Shown here: one piece after another, positions 5,352-59,167 of the stretch | Layout of the letters: every line of letters starts with the position of its first letter | How positions within the stretch are numbered: the stretch's first letter is position 1 | Source of the DNA: Serratia symbiotica (Periphyllus acericola) | GTDB lineage: Bacteria > Pseudomonadota > Gammaproteobacteria > Enterobacterales > Enterobacteriaceae | DNA: 64,000 nt | Direction: 5' to 3' | NCBI RefSeq assembly: GCF_964019515.1 | Contig: NZ_OZ026452.1 | Coordinates: 682,001-746,000, forward strand | The notes under the pieces: model-generated | Databases searched by the model: none | What the model was told of the DNA's origin: nothing | The model's input: the letters and a program-made list of their open reading frames with translations, nothing else | Translations under genes and position numbers: made by a program

Positions 5352-6985
5352 GAGATCGGTTTGATTAACGTCAACTGGGCCGGGGTGGCGACGATATAAA
5401 CTGCATCAATAATGCCACCACCGGATCCCCTTGGCTCATCGCTCGATGACACGCGAGGTGTCTCGCTGGCGATAGTCACATTGGGTAGCGTAGTAACAGA
5501 GGGAATCGGCATGCCAGTCAAGCGAAGGCCGCCGTTGTTTACCGCCTTACGCAGTTCATCGGCAGAGCCAATACCTTGCTGTAATACCATTTGGCCACCC
5601 AGCTTTTGCCACTCTTGATTAAAGGCTTTGGCGATACGATCGCCGAAGGAAGCGCGCGGCACCAAAAGCAGCGGTTGGCGTTGCTGCTGATCCCAGATAT
5701 GGCGGGCGGCATCGCGCGCTTCATCCTCCGGCGACAGCGCAAAGTAACAAATGTTTGGATCATCATTCGGCTTTTCCGGGTGATTGAGTGCCAGTACGTT
5801 CAGCGTAGTATGGCTGCCAGAAAGCTGATCGACGTTTTCTTTCAGCAACGGGCCGACCACCAGTGTAGCACCATCCTGCTGCGCCTGGTTCAGCAACGCT
5901 GCCAACGGCTGGCTAGTGGTGTCATACACCTTAACTTGCACATTATTGGTAGCCTGCGATGGGTTGATTGACGCTATAGAAGGCACCGACTGATCTGCTG
6001 GCTGAGGCGAAGTACTGACCGCACCGCTTGCGTTGAGATCTGCGGAGATGACGGCTGATTGGTCAGGGTTAGTGGTTTGCAGTGCTTGCGGTGTCGGCGC
6101 AGGTGCGGAGACGCCGTTCTTCGCGGCTTCAAAACCCTGCAAGATGGCGTCGGCGAACATCTGAGCTTGGCCGCTCAGCGACAGCAACAAAGCGATGCTT
6201 GAGGTGGAGGCTTGGGTGAAGTTCAACACCGGATTCAACGGGGTCGGCAATTTTTTCGCCGCCGGATTATGCGGGTAGCGGTTTTGCCAGTCTTTGATGC
6301 CCGCCCGGAGCAGGTCTGGATCTTGCCGGTTATCCTGATAGATACGCAGCAGATCTAGCCATCCTTGCAGCACGTTCTCGTTGGCGTTGATCACCAGGCA
6401 ATTGACGTTCTGCGGCGTCAATTGCAGCAATGTTTGCCAGGTCTGATCGAGATTGTTTTGGTGTGCCTGGCCGATCAGCAGCGGTTCTTGCGCAACATAG
6501 GCGCGGATCAGAGGCAGAGAAGAGGTACCCTGATTGGCGCCAATTTGCGCCTGATAGTAGCGCATCTGCTGATTAGCCGACAGCGAACCGCTATCCAGAT
6601 GATCCTGAGTGCTACGAGCTCTGATGTTTCTTTTGCTGGCTACCTCTAGTTCAGCGGTCAGAAGTTGTCGTTCCGCCAATTGCACGCTGCTGAGGTTTTT
6701 GGGCAGTTGTTCCCACTGATCACTGGCCTGGGGCAATTTCCCCTCACGCAACAACGCGCGAATAGCAAGTAATTGCCAGTCAGCCTTGTTATCATCACTG
6801 CTTTGTTGAAGTTGCAGTAGATAGTAATCAGCGTTGGCGTTGGCCTCGTCTTGTATATTAACGGGCGGCGTTTGCGGTACCGGACTTGCACAACCCGCCA
6901 GCAAAAGGAGTGCTGCGATGACTGCGGTAAGTCGGACAGGCTTGGAATGCCCTGCTTTGGTAGCAACAAATGTTGAGGAAAGCAT
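5348..6985 (-). CDS. lpoA: Penicillin-binding protein activator LpoA, C-terminally truncated
   Basis: Outer-membrane lipoprotein that activates the transpeptidase of PBP1A. I place the start at 6985 ([10 protein letters not shown]), which puts a lipobox [10 protein letters not shown] about 30 residues in; a longer frame to 7048 adds 21 residues that would spoil the signal peptide. The N-terminal TPR-like domain and most of the C-terminal periplasmic-binding-like fold are present, but the protein ends at [20 protein letters not shown]. Family members continue for roughly 110 residues after this motif, so the gene has lost its 3' end by a deletion that joins it directly to the ATG of yraN. The remaining 545-residue protein may be non-functional. 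It is divergent from rsmI. Confidence 0.85.
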
Positions 6986-9470: not shown

Positions 9471-10167
9471 GGCGTTGTTGAATAAATCGAACTTTTGGCC
9501 AGGACGAGGATCCGATCACTCTCCTTCTGTCAAAATAGCGATATTCCGTGGCCCAGCAAAAGTTCAACATCAGCAACTGGAAGGCTTACAACCACGCCCT
9601 TACCACTCGGGGTTCACTCACTTGCTGGGGGGATGAAACGGCACTTCACGCCTGGTACTGCGATGGAGGCAAAACTTTCTCTGCGTGGTCGCCCACCACA
9701 TTATTCCGATATGGCAATCACCAGCGTATTGATGCTGAAACGGATTTTCGGCCTGACACTTCGCGCCCTCCAGGGCTTTGTCGACTCCATTGTCACACTG
9801 ATCAAAGTGCCGTTGAACTGCCCGGACGACACCTGCATCAGTAAGCGGGCGAAGTCCGGCCATGTCCCGTTTAAAACCGTAACGCCGGGTGAAATTGCGC
9901 ACCTCGTTATCGACTCTAGCGGGCTCAACGTGTTGGGTGAAGGGGAGTGGAAGGTAAAAAAAACACGGTCAGGAAAAACGGCGGATCTGGCGAAAACTGC
10001 ATTTGGCCGTAGATACAGAAACACATGAGGTCATCTGTGCTGACCTTTCCTTGAGCAATGTCACCGATACCGCAGCCTTCTCAGGTCTCATCCGCCAGAG
10101 GTACCGTAAAATCAAAGTCGCCTCGGCGGATCGGGCTTAGGATACGCGAGTGTGTCATGATGAGGCA
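9471..10167 (+). mobile_element. IS5-family (IS903-group) element, copy A, 3' truncated
   Basis: Left inverted repeat GGCGTTGTTGAATAAATCG at 9471; the element then follows the other copies until about 10167, where it changes into yohK sequence, so the last approximately 360 bp and the right repeat are gone. It interrupts the tnpB remnant on its left and the yohK remnant on its right, meaning it marks a deletion junction rather than a simple insertion. Confidence 0.92.
9548..10167 (+). pseudogene. IS903-group transposase, copy A
   Basis: GTG-start transposase similar to the 307-residue IS903 type, truncated at 3'. It has extra bases near 9667 and in the A-run near 9957 that shift the frame, and the family-wide TAG codon is present at 10138-10140. 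Inactive. Confidence 0.88.
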
Positions 10168-13496: not shown

Positions 13497-14550
13497 GGCT
13501 TTGTTGAATAATCAGATTTGGAATAAAGAGTCCCCTGAATGGGCATCTTTCAGGCAAGGCGTACACTTTCTGGCATACCGGCGAGCGTCATCTTGTTTAA
13601 TGCACAGATCATGGCCAGCGCCTCTGCAACTTGCCCATCATAATCTCGCAGCAACAGGTGACTACCAAATAGCTGTTTTACTCTGTACCTCGCTGTTGCC
13701 GCTATCGAACGTCGGTGGTATCCTGTGATACTTTTCCACCGTGTGTTGTCTCCGGTAACGCGCTGGTTCACCACCGATTGATTTCGCTCTGCATAGTCTG
13801 CCGACCAATAACGGGCTCCGCTGCTGGGCGGTATTAACGCCTTGAGCTTCTTGCCCCTTAACTCATCATCACACACTCGCGTATCCTAAGCCCGATCCGC
13901 CGAGGCGACTTTGATTTTACGGTACCTCTGACGGATGAGACCTGGGAAGGCTTCTATATCGGTGACATTGCTCAAGGAAAGGTCAGCACAGATGACCTCA
14001 TGTGTTTCTGTATCTACGGCCAAATGCAGTCTTCGCCAGATCCGCCGTTTTTCCTGACCGTATTTTTTTGCCATCCACTCGCCTTCACCCAACACGTTGA
14101 GCCCGCTAGAGTCGATAACGAGGTGCGCAATTTCACCCGGCGTTGGTGTTTTAAACGGGACATGGCCGGACTTTGCCCGCTTACTGATGCAGGTGTCGTC
14201 CGGGCAGTTCAACGGCACTTTGATCAGTGTGATAATGGAATCGACGAAGCCCTGGAGGGCGCGAAGTGTCAGGCCGAAAATCCGTTTCAGCATCAATACG
14301 CTGGTGATTGCCATATCGGAATAATGTGGTGGGCGACCACGCAGAGAAGTTTTTGCCTCGCAGTACCAGGCGTGAAGTACCGTTTCATCCCCCCAGCAAG
14401 TGAGTAAACCCCGAGTGATAAGGGCGTTGTTGTAAGCCTTCCAGTTGCTGATGTTGAACTTTTGCTGGGCCACGGAATGTCGCTATTTTGACAGAAGGAG
14501 AGTGATCTGATCCGTGTGCCGGCCAAAAGTTTGATTTATTCAACAACGCC
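13497..14550 (-). mobile_element. IS5-family (IS903-group) element, copy B
   Basis: Complete 1054-bp element in reverse orientation, bounded by GGCTTTGTTGAATAA at 13497 and TTATTCAACAACGCC ending 14550. CACCCAA precedes the left end (2 bp away) and follows the right end (1 bp away), a possible eroded remnant of the 9-bp target duplication typical of IS903. Confidence 0.92.
13550..14473 (-). pseudogene. IS903-group transposase, copy B
   Basis: 308-codon frame from a GTG start, intact except for the family-wide TAG at 13886-13888 (codon 196) that follows the second catalytic Asp. The second half continues in the same frame to the end, with Ala at the catalytic Glu position. Confidence 0.9.
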
Positions 14551-17818: not shown

Positions 17819-17882
17819 GGGCTTTGTTGAATAAATCGGATTTGGAATAAAGAGTCCCCTGAATGGGCATCTTTCAGGCAAC
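17819..17882 (-). mobile_element. Solo right end of an IS903-group element
   Basis: GGCTTTGTTGAATAAATCGG and the next approximately 45 bp equal the terminal 64 bp of the other copies (reverse orientation); the match ends abruptly after TTTCAGGCAA. It lies 32 bp from the next IS copy, facing it tail to head. Confidence 0.85.
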
Positions 17883-17914
17883 GCCTGGCGGCGCATCAGT
17901 TTCATATAATTTTG

Positions 17915-18850
17915 GGCGTTGTTGAATAAATCGAACTTTTGGCCGGGACGAGGATCTGATCACTCTCCTTCTGTCAAAATAGCGACATTCCGTGGCCCAG
18001 CAAAAGTTCAACATCAACAACATTCTTCCAATATGGCAATCACCAGCGTATTGATGCTGAAACGGATTTTCGGCCTGACACTTCGCGCCCTCCAGGGCTT
18101 CATCGACTCCAGTGTCACACTGATCAAAGTGCCGTTGAACTGCCCGGACGACACCTGCATCAGTAAGCGGGCAAAGTCCGGCCATGTCCCGTTTAAAACC
18201 GCAACGCCGGGTGAAATTGCGCACCTCGTTATCGACTCTACCGGGCTCAACGTCTTGGGTGAAGGGGAGTGGATGGTAAAAAAACACGGTCAGGAAAAAC
18301 GGCGGATCTGGCGAAAACTGCATTTGGCCGTAGATACAGAAACACATGAGGTCATCTGTGCTGACCTTTCCTTGAGCAATGTCACCGATACCGAAGCCTT
18401 CCCAGGTCTTATCCGCCAGAGGTACCGTAACATCAAAGTCACCTCGGCGGATCGGGCTTAGGATACGCGAGTGTGTGATGATGAGTTAAGGGGCAAGAAG
18501 CTCAAGGCGTTAATACCGCCTAAAAGCGGAGCCCGTTATTGGTCGGCAGACTATGCAGAGCGAAATCAAGCGGTGGTGCACCAGCGCGTTACCGGAGACA
18601 ACACACGGTGGAAAAGTATCACAGGCTACCACCGACGTTCGATAGCGGCAACAGCGAGGTACAGAGTAAAACAGCTATTTGGTGGTCACCTATCGCTGCG
18701 AGATTATGATGGGCAAGTTGCAGAGGCGCTGGCCATGATCTGTGCATTAAACAAGATGACGCTCGCCGGTATGCCGAAAGTGTACGCCTTGCCTGAAAGA
18801 TGCCCATTCAGGGGACTCTTTATTCCAAATCCGATTTATTCAACAACGCC
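17915..18850 (+). mobile_element. IS5-family (IS903-group) element, copy C, internally deleted
   Basis: Both inverted repeats are present, but the element is only 936 bp because about 118 bp near the transposase start are missing (AACATCAACAACATT joins straight to CCAATATGGC). Confidence 0.92.
17992..18796 (+). pseudogene. IS903-group transposase, copy C
   Basis: The internal deletion removes roughly residues 15-53. TAG at 18459-18461 is the family-wide stop. One base is lost near the end (AGMPKVYALP instead of AGMPESVRLA), shifting the C-terminus. Confidence 0.88.
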
Positions 18851-18852
18851 TT

Positions 18853-19560
18853 TTTTCGATGCCTCCTAGATTGCCAGATAAATCACTTTTCTCAATGAGT
18901 GATCTGTAGGGAACACTTTACGTTTCTTTATCGCCTGCCGGATCACGCTGTTCAGCGATTCAATAGCGTTGGTCGTGAAGAAAGCATTGCGGATATCCGC
19001 AGGATAACCGAAGAACGTGTTGAGATTTTCCCAGTGAGTACGCCAACTTTTGCTGATTTGCGGGTATTTTTCATCACAGATGCCTGCAAACTTGTCCAAC
19101 GCCATCAGAGCCGCTTCCTCTGTCTGGGCCTAGTACACCGTTTTCAACCCGCTAGTGACCGCTTTGTAGTCTTTCCACGATACGTACTTCAATACGTACT
19201 TCAGGCTGTTACGTACCATGTGGATAATGCACAGTTGGATGTGGGTTTGTGGATAGACGCTATTTATCGCATCGGGGAAGCCTTTCAGGCCATCCACGCA
19301 AGCAGTCAGGATGTCTTGAAGACCCCGATTTTTCAGCTCAGTCAATACGTTGAGCCAGAACTTGGCCCCTTCATTCTCTGCCAGCAACATGCTCAGCATT
19401 TTTTTCGTGACCGAGGTGCTCGGTAAGCTCAGCATTCAAGGCGGTTTAGACGGTGAGCTTGGTCAGCATACGAGAAAACGCGTTGAGGTCAGCTTCAGTT
19501 TTAAGGCCTTTGGCCAATTCAGCAGCAAGTGCTTTAAGTTTCTTTTCGTCCATAATTTGC
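18853..19560 (-). pseudogene. IS256-family (Mutator-type) transposase, broken
   Basis: N-terminus MDEKKLKALAAELAKGLKTE begins near 19551, with a TAA where family members have a sense codon (LTKLTV*TALNAEL). A large internal deletion then joins HEKNAEH-type sequence to LAENEGAKFWLNVLTELKNR. CIIHMVRNSLKYV follows, with a 12-bp insertion repeating LKYV, and TNAIESLNSVIRQAIKKRK appears near the C-terminus. The 3' end abuts copy C of the IS. Part of the catalytic core is missing, so it is dead. Confidence 0.88.
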
Positions 19561-19624
19561 CTGTCTCCGTTGTCAGGAAGAACATATCAAAAACAAGCAA
19601 TTACACAATTTAAATCACAGTCTC

Positions 19625-20135
19625 CCACATGTTGGACACTTTTCTTTAACTGGCGGCTGACATGGCCTAAGTTCGATACTGTACCGGACTCAAGCCGTTC
19701 AGTTTTGCCTTGATTCGTTCATTGTTGTAGTAATGGATTTATTCAACAAAGTCTATTGAGAGCCATGATACCGTTTGCACGATAAATACGCGACCAACTG
19801 CTGACAGTACAGCAGCGGCTATTTTAAATTTTGCAGTAGCTTTACGGGATGACTGCCCGTTATCCTGCATCCAGAGACGCACGGACTCTTTAAATTCAGC
19901 AGAGTAGGAACGAATCGGTATCATGAAGCCGTCTTCGCCACTGGCTTTCCAGTGCTCAGCCCAGCGCCGGACTGTACCCTGGTCAATACCAAACAACTGA
20001 ACTGTTCTTTTCGCTCCGTTATCGCTGTTCAGATAGTGATGAACAACTTGTTGCTTGAATTCAGTAGAGTATTTTTTTCTGCCCATTGAAATACAAAACC
20101 CCTAATCGTTGGATGTCCAACTTTTGTGGTTCACT
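19625..20135 (-). pseudogene. IS3-family element remnant (OrfA plus end of OrfB)
   Basis: OrfA starts at 20086: MGRKKYSTEFKQQVVHHYLN then a helix-turn-helix (TVQLFGIDQGTVRRWAEHW), as in IS3-family OrfA. It runs into the tail of OrfB (IHYYNNERIKAKLNGLSPVQ), with nearly all of the OrfB integrase core deleted. A TAA replaces the Tyr codon before IHYY. The upstream end with GTTGGATGTCCAACTTTTG is probably the left terminal repeat. Confidence 0.85.
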
Positions 20136-23500: not shown

Positions 23501-24322
23501 GGTGCTGGCCTGGAGCAGTAGGTGGGTGATCAGCACATTGGTATCACCAACCAAACGCAGGTGTTCACCGTTAATTTCCTTAACGGTGATATCCAGCGGC
23601 AAACGAATTTCCGGCAAATCCGGCAGCAACGGTTTGGCGAATAAGGCTTTCAGAGTTTCTCCTAGCGGCGGTTCTGCCGATTTCGCTGTCTTATCGCCCT
23701 GCTCACCAACCTTTTTCGTCACTTCTACCCCTACCCCTGATAGTACCGTTTGCGGCCGCGGGTTGTGCGAGGTTTTCGGCAACGCGATCAGCAGCGAGTT
23801 GATTTTGGTAGGCATCAGCGTCAACGCGTGCGCTTGCCATTGCGTCCCAGTGCGCAACTCAGCCAGCGAAATCGCCGTACCATCGACGCTGACTTTGACG
23901 TTATCCAGCGCCAGCATACGCAGGATAATCGGGTATGGCGTACTGAGATGAGTGGCGGGTGTCCTGGTTTCTTTAGCCGGTGTGGACGGCACCATCTCTT
24001 TGGTGTTAATCACCACATCAACATCCTGCGCAGTTAAAGCATTGACGCACAGCGAGCGGTGTTTAAAACAGGACAGATCGAGCGATAGATGGAACTGCCC
24101 AACAGTCATCGCCGTGCCTGGCATCTGGTACTTCACGCCTTTCAGCGTCAGATCACGCCAGCCGCCGCTGACGCTGTCGATGTCCAACCCTGGCACCCAG
24201 CGCGCTGCGCCGTTGATCGCCATATGTAGTCCGTTGGTGGTGCCGAGAAAAAAGGCTCCCCCCCCTATCAGCAACAACAGAACACCCATGGCTCCGAGAC
24301 AAATCTTTTTCACCAGGCTCAT
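20510..24322 (-). CDS. tamB: Translocation and assembly module subunit TamB
   Basis: 1270 residues (E. coli 1259). Inner-membrane-anchored AsmA-like protein spanning the periplasm, partner of TamA, implicated in outer-membrane protein insertion and phospholipid transport. A single N-terminal membrane anchor ([18 protein letters not shown]) is followed by long beta-rich repeats forming the hydrophobic groove, and the conserved C-terminal DUF490 domain ends in [20 protein letters not shown] with a terminal Phe. No break seen. The ATG overlaps the tamA stop (ATGA), so the two are coupled. Confidence 0.96.
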
Positions 24323-26058
24323 AGCTCAGGCCCCAAACCGATGTAGAACTGTACTCCATGGGTCTCTTTGTCTCCCACAGGCGCGGCAATATCCAGCTTC
24401 ACCGGCCCCAACGGCGACTGCCAGCGCACGCCTATGCCCGCGCCGGTTTTAACATTGCTCTTTTTGATGTCGTCCACCGCTTCGCCGGAATCAACAAACA
24501 CCGCACCCCACCACTTGCCGGTCACGTTATATTGGTATTCCAGCGAACCGGTCAGAATTTTGGAAGCACCGATAACCTTACCCTCGTTGTCACACGGTGA
24601 AATACCTGTGTACTTATAGCCGCGAATACTGCGATCTCCTCCGGCGAAGAAGCGCAGGTCCGGCGGCACTTTGTCGAAGCCATTTGTTTCGATCCACCCC
24701 ACCTGCCAACGTACCAAGAAGCGGTGTTTGTCGGCCAGAGTGCGGATCCAAACGTTCTGCGCCTGCATTAGCGCAAAGTCCACGCCGTAACCCCAAGTGG
24801 TATTGGACACATCAATGGAATAGCGCTGGCTGTCACCCCAGGTTGGCATCAAACCGCCACGCGAGCGAGTGCGGTTAACGCTGACACCGGGGTACAGCAG
24901 CATGGTGGTGTTGGTGACAGTACCCTGGGTAAAGTGATCCAGACGCCAGGTCAGGTTCACAACCCGCTGCCAGCCGCTGGAAAGATCCCAGTTACGCGAC
25001 ACCACCACTTTGGAAGTAACGGACTTGGTATCGTTGAGATCGACGTTCTTGAAGCCCCCCTGCAACAGGAAGTATTGCTCAAGCGGGTTCTTCAGCAGTG
25101 GGATTTTATAGGTCAAATCTAGCTGCTGCTCCGGTGCCGAAACGCGAGCACTGCTTTCCAGACTATGGCCGCGATCATTGAGCCAGGGTTTTTTCCAGGG
25201 ACCCTTCACGCGCGGACCAACATCGGTGGAATAACCGACCCCAGTCTCGATAGTATTGCGGGTGCGCGGCGTGACCCATGCATATAGCGGCAACACCCTA
25301 TTTCCTTTTGAAGTTTTGAAGTCAGGAAACACCACTACCGAATTAAACCAGCTGGTGGCGGACAAACGCCGATTCAGTTCGGCTAAGTCTTCCGAGCTGT
25401 AATAATCTCCCTGATGAAAGGGCACTAAATTTTGCAGATAGTCTTCTCGGATTTGCGAACCTTCAAACTTTACCTCGCCAAAACGGTAGCGCGATCCGCT
25501 GTTAAAATCGATATCCCAAAAGGCTCTATGCAAATCTTCAGCCACGCCGAGCTGGCTATCAAGCATGTCTGCATCAAAGTAACCCTTACGCAGCGCTAGG
25601 CTGGTCAAAGAATTTTTAAAGCTGTCGTACTTGCCGTGGTTGAGGATCTCGCCAAGGGTCGGACGGCCTTGCTTTACCAGCGTCAGGTAATCCTCATCGG
25701 TGAGAGCGTCGCCCTTCAGCACGATATTGTCACCGGCAATGTGCACCGGCTCACCGGGGTTCACCTTAGCATGTAACACCTGGCGCGATAGACCTCGCCG
25801 ATCGTCCAGCGTAAAATCGATGGTTGGATTGTAGTAACCTAATGCCCTCAACCCCTGACGTACCGCTTCGTTCACGCGCGCCCGTAAATGACCATCGTTA
25901 CCGACCTCTTCAGGCGTTATAGAAGACAGCCGACCCCGGACGTTTTTCTCCAGCTCACCACTCAGACCTTCCACCTTGATCCGCACATTCGCCGCGTAGG
26001 TCGCAGTTGCCACAAAAAAAAATAAAACAAGCACATGAATGGATATCGTAGCACGCAT
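24319..26058 (-). CDS. tamA: Outer-membrane translocation module protein TamA (Omp85 family)
   Basis: 579 residues (E. coli 577). The signal peptide ([14 protein letters not shown], cleaved before [10 protein letters not shown]) is followed by three POTRA domains and a 16-strand barrel with the conserved lid-loop motif [14 protein letters not shown]. It ends in [11 protein letters not shown]. Works with TamB. Intact and divergent from the msrA remnant, the standard enterobacterial arrangement. Confidence 0.96.
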
Positions 26059-26836: not shown

Positions 26837-27891
26837 GGCGTTGTTGAATAAATCGAACTTTTGACCGGCACGAGGATCAGATCACTCTCCTTCTGTCAAA
26901 ATAGCGACATTCCGTGGCCCAGCAAAAGTGCAACATCACCAACTGGAAGGCTTACAACAACGCCCTTATCACTCGGGGTTCACTCACTTGCTGGGGGGAT
27001 GAAACGGCACTTCACGCCTGGTACTGCGAGGCAAAACCTTCTCTGCGTGGTCGCCCACCACATTATTCTGATATGGCAATCACCAGCGTATTGATGCTGA
27101 AACGGATTTTCGGCCTGACACTTCGCGCCCTCCAGGGCTTCGTCGATTCCATTATCACACTGATCAAAGTGCCGTTGAACTGCCCGGACGACACCTGCAT
27201 CAGTAAGCGGGCAAAGTCCGGCCATGTCCCGTTTAAAACCGTAACGCCGGGTGAAATTGCGCACCTCGTTATCGACTCTAGCGGGCTCAACGTGTTGGGT
27301 GAAGGCGAGTGGAAGGTAAAAAAACACGGTCAGGAAAAACGGCGGATCTGGCGAAAACTGCATTTGGCCGTAGATACAGCAACACATGAGGTCATCTGTG
27401 CTGACCTTTCCTTGAGCAATGTCACCGATACCGAAGCCTTCCCAGGTCTCATCCGCCAGAGGTACCGTAAAATTAAAGTCGCCTCGGCGGATCGGGCTTA
27501 GGATACGCGAGTGTGTGATGATGAGTTAAGGGGCAAGAAGCTCAAGGCGTTAATACTGCCCAGCAGCGGAGCCCGTTATTGGTCGGCAGACTATGCAGAG
27601 CGAAATCAAGCGATGGCGAACAGGCGCGTTACCAGAGACAACACACGGTGGAAAATTATCACAGGCTACCACCGACGTTCGATAGCGGCAACAGCGAGGT
27701 ACAGAGTAAAACAGCTATTTGGTGGTCACCTGTCGCTGCGAGATTATGATGGGCAAGTTGCAGAGGCGCTGGCCATGATCTGTACATTAAACAAGATGAC
27801 GCTCGCCGGTATGCCAGAAAGTGTACGCCTTGCCTGAAAGATGCCCATTTACGGGACTCTTTATTCCAAATCCGATTTATTCAACAACGCC
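26837..27891 (+). mobile_element. IS5-family (IS903-group) element, copy D
   Basis: 1055 bp between GGCGTTGTTGAATAAATCG and the matching right repeat TTTATTCAACAACGCC. The flanking 9-mers differ, so no target duplication remains, and the msrA 3' end is absent on the right: this copy bounds a deletion or rearrangement. Confidence 0.93.
26914..27837 (+). pseudogene. IS903-group transposase, copy D (least damaged)
   Basis: A 308-codon frame of IS903 length interrupted only by the TAG at 27499-27501 (codon 196), immediately after ASADRA where relatives read GDGAYDT or similar. The first catalytic Asp is in VIDSSGLNVLG. The IS5-family Y(2)R(3)E(6)K signature reads Y-HR-R-SIA-A-TARYRV-K, with Ala (GCA, 27688-27690) in place of the catalytic Glu. 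Confidence 0.92.
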
Positions 27892-36655: not shown

Positions 36656-37710
36656 GGCGTTGTTGAATAAATCGAACATTTGGCCGCCACGAGGATCCGA
36701 TCACTCTCCTTCTGTCAAAATAGCGACATTCCGTTGCCCAGCAAAAGTTCAACATCACCAACTGGAAGGCTTACAACAACGCCCTTATCACTCGGGGCTC
36801 ACTCACTTGCTGGGGGGATGAAACGGCACTTCACGCCTGGTACTGCGAGGCAAAACCTTCTCTGCGTGGTCGCACACCACATTATTCCGATATGGCAATC
36901 ACCAGCGTATTGATGCTGAAACGGATTTTCGGCCTGACACTTCTCGTCCTCCAGGGCTTTGTCGACTCCATTGTCACACTGATCAAAGTGCGGTTGAACT
37001 GCACGGACGACACCTGCATCAGTAAGCGGGCAAAGTCCGGCCATGTCCCGTTTAAAACCGCAACGCCGGGTGAAATTGCGTACCTCGTTATCGACTCTAG
37101 CGGGCTCAACGTGTTGGGTGAAGGCTAGTGGATGGCAAAAAAACACGGTCAGGAAAAACGGTGGATCTGGCGAAAACTGCATTTGGCCGTAGATACAGAA
37201 ACACATGAGGTCATCTGTGCTGACCTTTCTTTGAGCAATGTCACCGATACCGAAGCCTTCCCAGGTCTCATCCGTCAGAGGTACCGTAAAATCAAAGTCG
37301 CCTCGGCGGATCTGGCTTAGGATACGCGAGTGAGTCATGATGAGTTAAGGGGCAAGAAGCTCAAGGCGTTAATACCGCCCAGCAGCGGAGCCCGTTATTA
37401 GTCGGCAGACTATGCAGAGCGAAATCAAGCGGTAGCGAACCAGCGCCTTACCAGAGACAACACACGGTGGAAAAGTATCACAGGCTACCACCGACGTTCG
37501 ATAGCGGCAACAGCGAGGTATAGAGTAAAACAGCTATTTGGTGGTCACCTGTCGCTGCGAGATTATGATGGGCAAGTTGCAGAGGCGCTGGCCATGATCT
37601 GTGCATTAAACAAGATGCCGCTCGCTGGTATGCCAGAAAGTGTACGCCTTGCCTGAAAGCTGCCCATTCACGGGACTCTTTATTTCAAATCCGATTTATT
37701 CAACAACGCC
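36656..37710 (+). mobile_element. IS5-family (IS903-group) element, copy E
   Basis: 1055 bp with both terminal repeats; lies 22 bp upstream of the iolC start. The flanking 9-mers do not match. It separates the dead iol cluster from the aroQ-accBC block. Confidence 0.93.
36733..37656 (+). pseudogene. IS903-group transposase, copy E
   Basis: The start codon has become TTG. TAG codons lie at 37126-37128 (replacing Glu), 37318-37320 (family-wide) and 37399-37401 (replacing Trp in RYWSADY). Shares the last change with copy F, so the two are close relatives. Confidence 0.9.
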
Positions 37711-40612: not shown

Positions 40613-41684
40613 GGCTTTGTTGAATAAATCGAACTTTTGGCCGGCACGAGGATCAGATCACTCTCCTTCTGTCAAAATAGCGACATTCCGTGGCCCAGCA
40701 AAAGTTCAACATCACCAACTGGAAGGCTTACAACAACGCCATTATCACTCGGGGCTCACTCACTTTCTCGGTGGATGAAACGGCACTTCACGCCTGGTAC
40801 TGCGAGGCAAAACCTTCTCTGCGTGGTCGCCGACAACATTATTCCTATATGGAAATGACCAGCGTAATGGCAATCACCAGCGTATTGATGCTGAAACGGA
40901 TTTTCGGCCTGACACTTCGCGCCCTCCAGGGCTTCGTCGATTCCATTATCACACTGATCAAAGTGCCGTTGAACTGCCCGGACGACACCTGCATCAGTAA
41001 GCGGGCAAAGTCCGGCCATGTCCCGTTTAAAACCCCAACGCCGGGTGAAATTGCGTACCTCGTTATCGACTTTAGCGGGCTCAACGTGTTGGGTGAAGGT
41101 GAGTGGATGGCAAAAAACACGGTCAGGAAAAACGGCGGATCTGGCAAAAAATGCATTTGGCCGTAGATACAGAAACACATGAGGTCATCTGTGCTGACCT
41201 TTCTTTGAGCAATGTCACCGATACCGAAGCCTTCCCAGGTCTCATCCGTCAGAGGTACCGTAAAATCAAAGTCGCCTCGGCGGATCGGGCTTAGGATACG
41301 CGAGTGAGTCATGATGAGTTAAGGGGCAAGAAGCTCAAGGCGTTAATACCGCCCAGCAGCGGAGCCCGTTATTAGTCGGCAGACTATGCAGAGCGAAATC
41401 AAGCGGTAGCGAACCAGTGCCTTACCAGAGACAACACACGGTGGAAAATTATCACAGGCTACCACCGACGTTCGATAGCGGCAACAGCGAGGTATAGAGT
41501 AAAACAGCTATTTGGTGGTCACCTGTCGCTGCGAGATTATGATGGGCAAGTTGTAGAGGCGCTGGCCATGATCTGTGCATTAAACAAGATGACGCTCGCC
41601 GGTATGCCGAAAGTGTACGCCTTGCCTGAAAGATGCCCATTCAGGGGACTCTTTTATTCCAAATCTGATTTATTCAACAACGCC
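40613..41684 (+). mobile_element. IS5-family (IS903-group) element, copy F
   Basis: 1072 bp; both terminal repeats present (GGCTTTGTTGAATAAATCG left). Longer than the others because an approximately 18-bp segment is repeated near 40850-40885 (ACCAGCGTAATGGCAATC). It lies between two different IS256-family remnants. Confidence 0.92.
40690..41629 (+). pseudogene. IS903-group transposase, copy F
   Basis: Family-wide TAG at 41292-41294, a further TAG replacing Trp near 41373 (shared with copy E), one base lost near 41110 in the Lys run, the 18-bp insertion near residue 55 and a shifted C-terminus. Dead. Confidence 0.88.
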
Positions 41685-58112: not shown

Positions 58113-59167
58113 GGCGTTGTTGAATAAATCGAACTTTTGGCCGGCACGAGGATCAGATCACTCTCCTTCTGTCAACATAGCGACATTCCGTGGCCCAGTA
58201 AAAGTTCAACATCACCAACTGGAAGGCTTACAACAACGCCCTTATCACTCGGGGTTTACTCACTTGCTGGGGGGATGAAACGGCACTTCACGCCTGGTAC
58301 TGCGAGGCAAAACCTTCTCTGCGTGGTCGCTCACCACATTATTCCGATATGGCAATCACCAGCGTATTGATGCTGAAACGGATTTTCGGCCTGACACTTC
58401 GCGCCCTCCAGGGCTTCGTCGACTCCATTGTCACACTGATTAAAGTGCCGTTGAACTGCCCGGACGACACCTGTATCAGTAAGCGGGCGAAGTCCGGCCA
58501 TGTCCCGTTTAAAACCCCAACGCCGGGTGAAATTGCGCACCTCGTTATCGACTCTAGCGGGCTCAACATGTTGGGTGAAGGGGAGTGGATGGTAAAAAAA
58601 CACGGTCAGGAAAAACGGCGGATCTGGCGAAAACTGCATTTGGCCGTAGATACAGAAACACATGAGGTCATCTGTGCTGACCTTTCCTTGAGCAATGTCA
58701 CCGATATGGAAGCCTTCCCAGGTCTCATCCGTCAGAGGCACCGTAAAATCAAAGTCGCCTCGGCGGATCGGGCTTAGGATACGCGAGTGTGTGATGATGA
58801 GTTAAGGCGCAAGAGGCTCAGGGCGTTAATACCGCCCAGCAGCGGAGCCCGTTATTGGTCGGCAGACTATGCAGAGCGAAATCAAGCGGTGGTGAACCAG
58901 CGCCTTACCGGAGACAACACACGGTGGAAAAGTATCACAGGCTACCACAGACGTTCGGTAGCGGCAACAGCGAGGTATAGAGTAAAACAGCTATTTGGTG
59001 GTCACCTGTCGCTGCGATATTATGATGGGCAAGTTGCAGAGGCGCTGGCCATGATCTGTGCATTAAACAAGATGCCGCTCGCCGGTATGCCAGAAAGTGT
59101 ACGCCTTGCCTGAAAGATGCCCATTCAGGGGACTCTTTATTCCAAATCCGATTTATTTAGCAAAGCC
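58113..59167 (+). mobile_element. IS5-family (IS903-group) element, copy G
   Basis: 1055 bp. The left repeat GGCGTTGTTGAATAAATCG is standard; the right end is altered (CCGATTTATTTAGCAAAGCC). The left neighbour is IS630 sequence and the right neighbour IS481 sequence, with no target duplication, so it sits at a junction between two unrelated IS remnants. Confidence 0.93.
58190..59113 (+). pseudogene. IS903-group transposase, copy G
   Basis: Codon 4 is TAA (GTG GCC CAG TAA), plus the family-wide TAG at 58775-58777. Otherwise the frame is continuous. Ala replaces the catalytic Glu as in the other copies with this region. Confidence 0.9.

Follow-up and report, generated by a model that had tools for sequence, protein, structure and literature searches.

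Since the transposases of bacterial insertion sequences (IS) mainly act in cis, these elements are commonly regarded as protected from defective cheaters. For Wolbachia wBm, a study by Cordaux in 2009 is said to have found that gene conversion maintains the similarity of nonfunctional IS copies. A passage of PMC3196728 discusses this process for dead IS in wBm, and one of PMC3004938 cites the case. A massive expansion of the IS903 group in a young insect symbiont is that of ISSoEn1 (IS5, ssgr IS903) in Sodalis pierantonius SOPE. Passages of the report on this element count 189 of 311 copies with intact ORFs and 122 disrupted ones, name recent expansion or gene conversion as the source of the high identity among copies, undecided, and treat mobilisation of the inactive copies in trans as conceivable (PMC3914690). 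MITEs such as MITECca01 of Cardinium are non-autonomous and need a parental transposase, as stated in parts of a report whose authors knew of no earlier one from such symbionts (PMC9769881). In S. symbiotica of Cinara tujafilina, mobile elements were described with IS481 as the most abundant, according to a section of PMC4122931. The available text of PMC9317480 contains neither 'mobile' nor 'insertion seq', and 'transposase' once, in library preparation. A literature search whose scope lay outside most subscription journals found no account of an IS903 family with a dead founder in S. symbiotica. A non-autonomous IS is a known kind of element; what is new here is how far the family has expanded, that its dead gene is of full length, and that parallel cases exist (see below).

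The stretch of DNA analysed here (the window, 64,000 nucleotides) covers positions 682001-746000 of the single contig of 1,897,958 bp that makes up the genome. It carries the following parts of one IS family:

26837..27891, + strand: copy D, full-length IS5/IS903-group element of 1,055 bp, catalytically dead
26837..26857, + strand: left inverted-repeat end of copy D
27871..27891, - strand: right inverted-repeat end of copy D
26914..27837, + strand: transposase frame of copy D, 307 residues, one internal stop
27274..27276, + strand: D121 codon of copy D, first catalytic Asp, retained (placed by alignment columns)
27490..27492, + strand: D193 codon of copy D, second catalytic Asp, retained (placed by alignment columns)
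27499..27501, + strand: codon 196 of copy D, in-frame TAG common to the copies; Tyr196 in relatives
27688..27690, + strand: GCA (Ala) codon of copy D; catalytic Glu259 in relatives
9471..10164, + strand: copy A, 3'-truncated, TAG
13497..14550, - strand: copy B, TAG and GCA
17820..17884, - strand: 65-bp piece of the family's right end, near copy C
17915..18850, + strand: copy C, 118-bp internal deletion, TAG and GCA
36656..37710, + strand: copy E, TAG and GCA
40613..41684, + strand: copy F, subtype with an 18-bp insertion, TAG and GCA
58113..59167, + strand: copy G, TAG and GCA

The ends of copy D agree with GGCKTTGTTGAATAAATCGAA, one fully and the other with 1 mismatch. The part of its frame before the stop matches the profiles PF13737 and PF01609, and the read-through frame matches NF033579 with 287 bits (cut-off 140), i.e. 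it is homologous to IS903-group transposases over its whole length; plasmid IS903-type records align to 100% of it as query at 71% identity. The family consensus is 1,055 bp long, and inverted-repeat ends of the 18-bp class were seen in 30 aligned copies as well as in the window. By transposase homology, by length and ends, and by the 9-bp target duplications described below, the family belongs by descent to the IS903 group of the IS5 family. It is not an autonomous member of that group, having neither an intact DDE triad nor an uninterrupted frame. IS903 and IS903B share with it a collinear 307-residue transposase (71% identical), the length class, the core of the end sequence and 9-bp duplications, but they are autonomous with Tyr196 and Glu259 intact, whereas the family has lost both and amounts to at least 174 copies or pieces. 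ISSoEn1, whose protein (P0111) is 61% identical to that of the family, resembles it in its massive expansion and differs in its many intact ORFs, none being seen in the family, nearly all of whose copies have the two faults in common. MITEs of the MITECca01 type are short end-to-end remnants, whereas elements of this family span the full length and contain a dead gene that is almost complete; assignment to the MITEs (less than about 300 bp, no coding sequence) does not apply, as 102 of the 174 copies or pieces span at least 1,000 bp. The GTG start was rejected as a family defect, as GTG aligns there in G020, G026 and IS903 too.

The family retains Asp121 and Asp193 when aligned with four relatives (P0003, P0006, P0111 and P0014), and has a stop and Ala where all four have Tyr196 and Glu259. 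D121, D193 and E259 are presumably the catalytic residues of IS903, in agreement with the alignment columns. A reading of the window from its sequence only had reported TAG at one common codon in all seven large copies, Ala for Glu in those retaining the 3' half, and a frame otherwise open over 308 codons in copy D. On re-reading, the first was found in 7/7 and the second, as GCA, in 6/6 copies, and the TAG at 27499-27501 is the sole internal stop of copy D. The Glu position is correctly aligned, with no gaps against the four relatives apart from the later start of P0014. Beside copy C, positions 18866-20086 of the window hold fragments that, labelled by eye, resemble an IS256-type transposase and an IS3-type OrfA; among them, 19733-19753 is similar to the inverted repeat (3 mismatches).

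Genome-wide, the family comprises at least 174 copies or pieces, 137 of them with both ends, and at least 160,217 bp, equal to at least 8.44% of the genome. The census combined a PF13737 search with patterns for codon 196 and for the Glu codon, which together gave 166 places, and merged the blastn pieces; as the PF13737 search scored 150 of 192 candidates, the copy count is a lower bound, and it includes short pieces, one of which (150 bp, 6205-6354) has just 74% identity. Alignments held 166 pieces of at least 300 bp and the tree 159 pieces of at least 600 bp. The context of codon 196 was matched 155 times (up to 3 mismatches) against 0 for the reversed control, so its sharing is not due to chance. 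Among the 147 readable copies listed, codon 196 is TAG in 140, TAC in six and CTC in one; the Glu codon (148 readable copies listed) is GCA in 141, GAA in six and GTA in one. Both codons are readable in 134 listed copies, as TAG+GCA (128), TAC+GCA (2), TAG+GAA (2), TAC+GAA (1) and TAG+GTA (1). A majority of intact copies elsewhere in the genome, which the sequence-only reading had named as speaking against it, is thus contradicted by the 128 of 134 with both faults. Tyr196 and Glu, the combination that it sought, occur together in one listed copy (375151-375786, the sole TAC+GAA case), which is truncated and rearranged, and no intact helper was seen. No intact copy was seen among the listed family copies, and an exact degenerate 20-mer search for the intact AD(G/R)AYDT motif, which a more diverged helper could escape, matched the six TAC copies only.

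In 17 of the 35 copies with a colinear frame (filtered on first residues and final stop, one evidently out of frame), TAG196 is the only stop. This would suit expression by amber read-through or suppression of an autonomous element, an alternative already raised from the sequence alone. The 53 matches to RF00005 in the genome include 51 tRNAs called by ARAGORN, among which there is no CUA anticodon; by eye, the loop of one of the two uncalled matches (527642) reads GUC, and the other, a weak one at 1302889, is without a normal anticodon arm. Moreover, coding variation is neutral (see below), and loss of the catalytic Glu abolishes catalysis in DDE enzymes, so that with Ala in its place suppression would not restore activity. 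Read-through is hence extremely improbable. The GUC-loop match itself (527642-527716) lies downstream of two 5S rRNA genes and is possibly a decaying tRNA-Asp.

Tyr and Glu codons are found in G020, G026 and IS903. S. symbiotica PERIS-14S contains the same family at 81-91% DNA identity, with GAA as Glu codon in 29/29 distinct sampled copies that retain it, and with codon 196 mostly as TAC, in some as TTC, TAT or CAC, and in no sampled copy as TAG. Plasmid pSsPl-LLN, from S. symbiotica of Periphyllus lyropictus, carries a copy (L348, 1501-2429) with 93% identity to the consensus and with TAC and GAA; the frame of this copy is broken despite these ancestral codons. Both faults therefore arose in the lineage of the window genome.

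IS903 makes 9-bp target duplications. In the family, 98 copies had both flanks read, and an own 9-bp duplication was exact in five and had one mismatch in two; all seven carry TAG+GCA, i.e. dead copies lie inside their own target duplications. Between copies, 19 exact left/right pairs of 9-mers (14 distinct) were found among 133 left and 127 right flanks, compared with 1, 0 and 0 in three controls. At lengths 7, 8, 10, 11 and 12 no flanks matched, and at length 6 there was one match. The cross pairs involve 28 copies, 22 with TAG+GCA and two being GAA relics. With duplications mostly split between different copies, it follows that the copies were inserted by 9-bp-duplicating transposition and recombined later. 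Multiplication by segmental duplication or crossing-over instead of transposition has in its favour that, in a comparison covering 9-mers and 15-base flanks, a few copies share 9-mers, with 8 exact same-side pairs; for instance 1238518- and 1430211+, two of the six GAA copies, probably represent one duplicated locus. Against such a process stand the many different sites that show a 9-bp target duplication, whether around one copy or split between copies; they make it highly improbable as the source of the family. The flanking 9-mer CATCTGACG is common to five copies (299650, 355568, 767075, 947786 and 1849044), perhaps by insertion into another repeat or into a preferred target.

Linkage between variant sites decays from a mean r2 of 0.038 at distances of at most 10 bp to 0.008 at more than 480 bp, with 0.006 after permutation. 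Several breaks are shared, namely a 68-bp deletion (7 copies), 7-bp insertions (9 and 7 copies) and a 121-bp deletion (4 copies), and in the tree the carriers of shared indels lie scattered. Gene conversion among the copies is clearly real, and part of the sharing is therefore not descent by transposition. Clean clonal sub-bursts were rejected as an account of the shared indels, the lesion groups being scattered on the tree and without long-range linkage. Slippage was likewise considered for the shared deletions; in the ten that were tested, the flanking direct repeats measure 0-5 bp, and recurrence is no easy explanation for the long ones.

Since gene conversion is real, sharing alone is no proof of a defective founder. 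An active family might have spread first, conversion driving TAG and Ala near fixation after its death, as proposed for the IS of Wolbachia wBm. The decay of linkage nearly to the permuted level, the scatter of shared indels on the tree, the undifferentiated deletion classes of PERIS-14S (below) and the wBm precedent (PMC3196728; PMC3004938), as far as these sources discuss and cite it, are in its favour. The frequency spectrum of variants argues against it. Variants present in 1, 2, 3-5, 6-15 and at least 16 copies number 337, 149, 174, 125 and 53, i.e. fractions of.402/.178/.208/.149/.063, far from the.177/.089/.141/.193/.400 of a conversion-drift equilibrium in the same classes. Assembly errors could add rare variants to the spectrum; the skew towards rare variants persists without singletons. 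A simple simulation of drift, run once per time with 150 copies and free recombination, places the observed shape between 0.1N and 0.2N generations, where 0 new alleles had reached 90%. At 1N and 2N, 5 and 47 new alleles per 1,000 segregating reach 90%, and there the shape of the spectrum misfits. As no new allele stands at 90% at matching simulated times, alleles at 95% are most likely founder alleles, and the faults were most likely already present in the founder, before the expansion. In this respect the family, with many similar broken copies and evidence of conversion like the IS of wBm, departs from that case, its variant spectrum pointing to faults before expansion.

The copies with ancestral codons were compared with the rest. 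This set of 11 TAC-or-GAA copies excludes those with CTC (67359) and GTA (1183609) and counts both members of the probable duplicate pair. Their median divergence is higher (3.5% vs 2.6%, p=5.5e-6), and they are more often broken (10/11 vs 55/155, p=4e-4), also when the duplicate pair is counted once (9/10 vs 55/155, p=9e-4), and such a concentration of ancestral codons in diverged, broken copies speaks against later conversion as well. The base 824G, which marks the GAA copies most strongly but is not the outgroup base, occurs on 6/6 GAA copies and on 5/142 others (p=5e-7 with the pair counted once), and the GAA copies carry the outgroup bases 933A (4/4 vs 3/128) and 764C (3/5 vs 4/134). This suggests that GAA lies on an older linked haplotype rather than being a back-mutation. 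TAC shows little linkage to neighbouring sites, and some TAC codons may thus be back-mutations. Spread by conversion from a formerly active family is on this evidence rather unlikely. The claim that shared faults mean a defective progenitor stands in so far as the founder was most likely defective; the step is not automatic, as copies recombine and conversion could spread a fault.

Ratios of nonsynonymous to synonymous variants (N/S) by frequency class, from rarest to commonest, are 2.71, 2.14, 2.78, 2.44 and 2.07, with a neutral expectation of 2.58. On branches, N/S is 1.07 for the family, 0.71 for IS903 and 0.72 for G020/G026, and coding variants in at least 6 copies (95:41) differ from those on the IS903 branch (27:38; p=1.9e-4). 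Ten further stop codons are each common to 6-17 copies. There is no selection on the protein among family variants, which is compatible with a dead founder and with conversion alike. A useful truncated product of 195 residues, e.g. a DNA-binding regulator kept by selection, could be read from variants in at least 6 copies, with N/S of 1.59 in the first 195 codons vs 4.89 after them (p=0.008). This order is reversed in the class of 3-5 copies (4.00 vs 1.56) and vanishes when all variants in at least 3 copies are pooled (p=0.89), and five further stops, each in 6-17 copies, lie within these very codons. Selection on such a product was rejected for this inconsistency between frequency classes and is very improbable.

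A window protein encoded at 24319-26058 (- strand) is 91% identical to those of S. symbiotica PERIS-14S and Sm Midelt, which marks the host of the window genome as an aphid symbiont similar to S. symbiotica. Both sister symbionts contain dead IS903-group copies; the copies analysed there are those that match the window family best and do not form a random sample. In PERIS-14S, a 48-bp in-frame deletion over Asp121 occurs in 21 of 31 distinct sampled copies (32 rows, L329 and L352 being the same), e.g. L351, L354 and L355. Pattern searches gave 77 deletion junctions and 16 intact sites, a ratio that overstates the deletion (sampled 21:10) because the patterns, each with 3 mismatches allowed, have 24 and 29 letters and the intact one is stricter. 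No direct repeat flanks this deletion. Copies with and without it are undifferentiated (pi 0.146 and 0.154, between them 0.150), and the variant spectrum is skewed to rare variants. Sm Midelt harbours a different IS903-group family. Of 20 fetched loci, two (L369 and L388) were too diverged and were left out of the lesion alignment; in the 18 copies scored (from L370-L387), 18/18 share W27 changed to TAG, E159 changed to TAA, an insertion of 10 bp close to codon 35 (of 7 bp relative to G020/G026) and a 60-bp deletion that removes codons 171-190, and 17/18, L384 being the exception, share a 1-bp deletion at codon 137. The codons for D121, D193 and E259 are retained in 16, 18 and 17 of the 18. 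As the spectrum of Sm Midelt departs less from equilibrium, conversion may have produced the sharing there. From their sequences, the dead families of the two sisters look parallel to that of the window genome. That IS903-group families of S. symbiotica were taken over by dead founders at least three separate times (window genome, PERIS-14S and Sm Midelt) can be put forward only tentatively, with the odds somewhat against it.

A dead founder explains the data better than later conversion, by a margin too small to establish mobilisation in trans. The probable history is that of a full-length non-autonomous family whose defective founder was mobilised in trans by a now-lost relative and remodelled by conversion. 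The founder would already have carried TAG196 and Glu259-to-Ala, with its ends usable. An autonomous relative, perhaps in the form of sister copies with TAC and GAA, would have supplied transposase in trans, by which the founder came to occupy considerably more than a hundred sites; we infer both this helper and its action. The relative would since have decayed or been lost, so that the family is probably immobile now. Conversion and crossing-over among the copies would afterwards have split the target duplications and spread further breaks. The proposal of a trans-mobilised family, made first from the sequence, agrees with the double faults of most copies, but for the helper only the truncated TAC+GAA copy (375151-375786) has come to light. 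The IS903 transposase is known for its action in cis, which counts against mobilisation in trans.

The family provides data for weighing mobilisation in trans against gene conversion. If dead founders took over repeatedly, the cis-preference thought to guard against cheaters would fail again and again in host-restricted symbionts, where an IS outbreak would be ended by cheaters and not by host defence. With near-universal founder faults and two parallel sister genomes, takeover by dead copies as the end of outbreaks in young symbionts becomes testable across strains.

Stronger conservation of the ends gave no clear signal, a further point against the proposed history, divergence being 2.0% in IRL, 3.5% in IRR and 2.5% in the ORF. 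Two sub-terminal non-coding bands, at consensus positions 23-77 and 1002-1033, are 4.7% and 5.5% divergent, about twice the value of the dead ORF.
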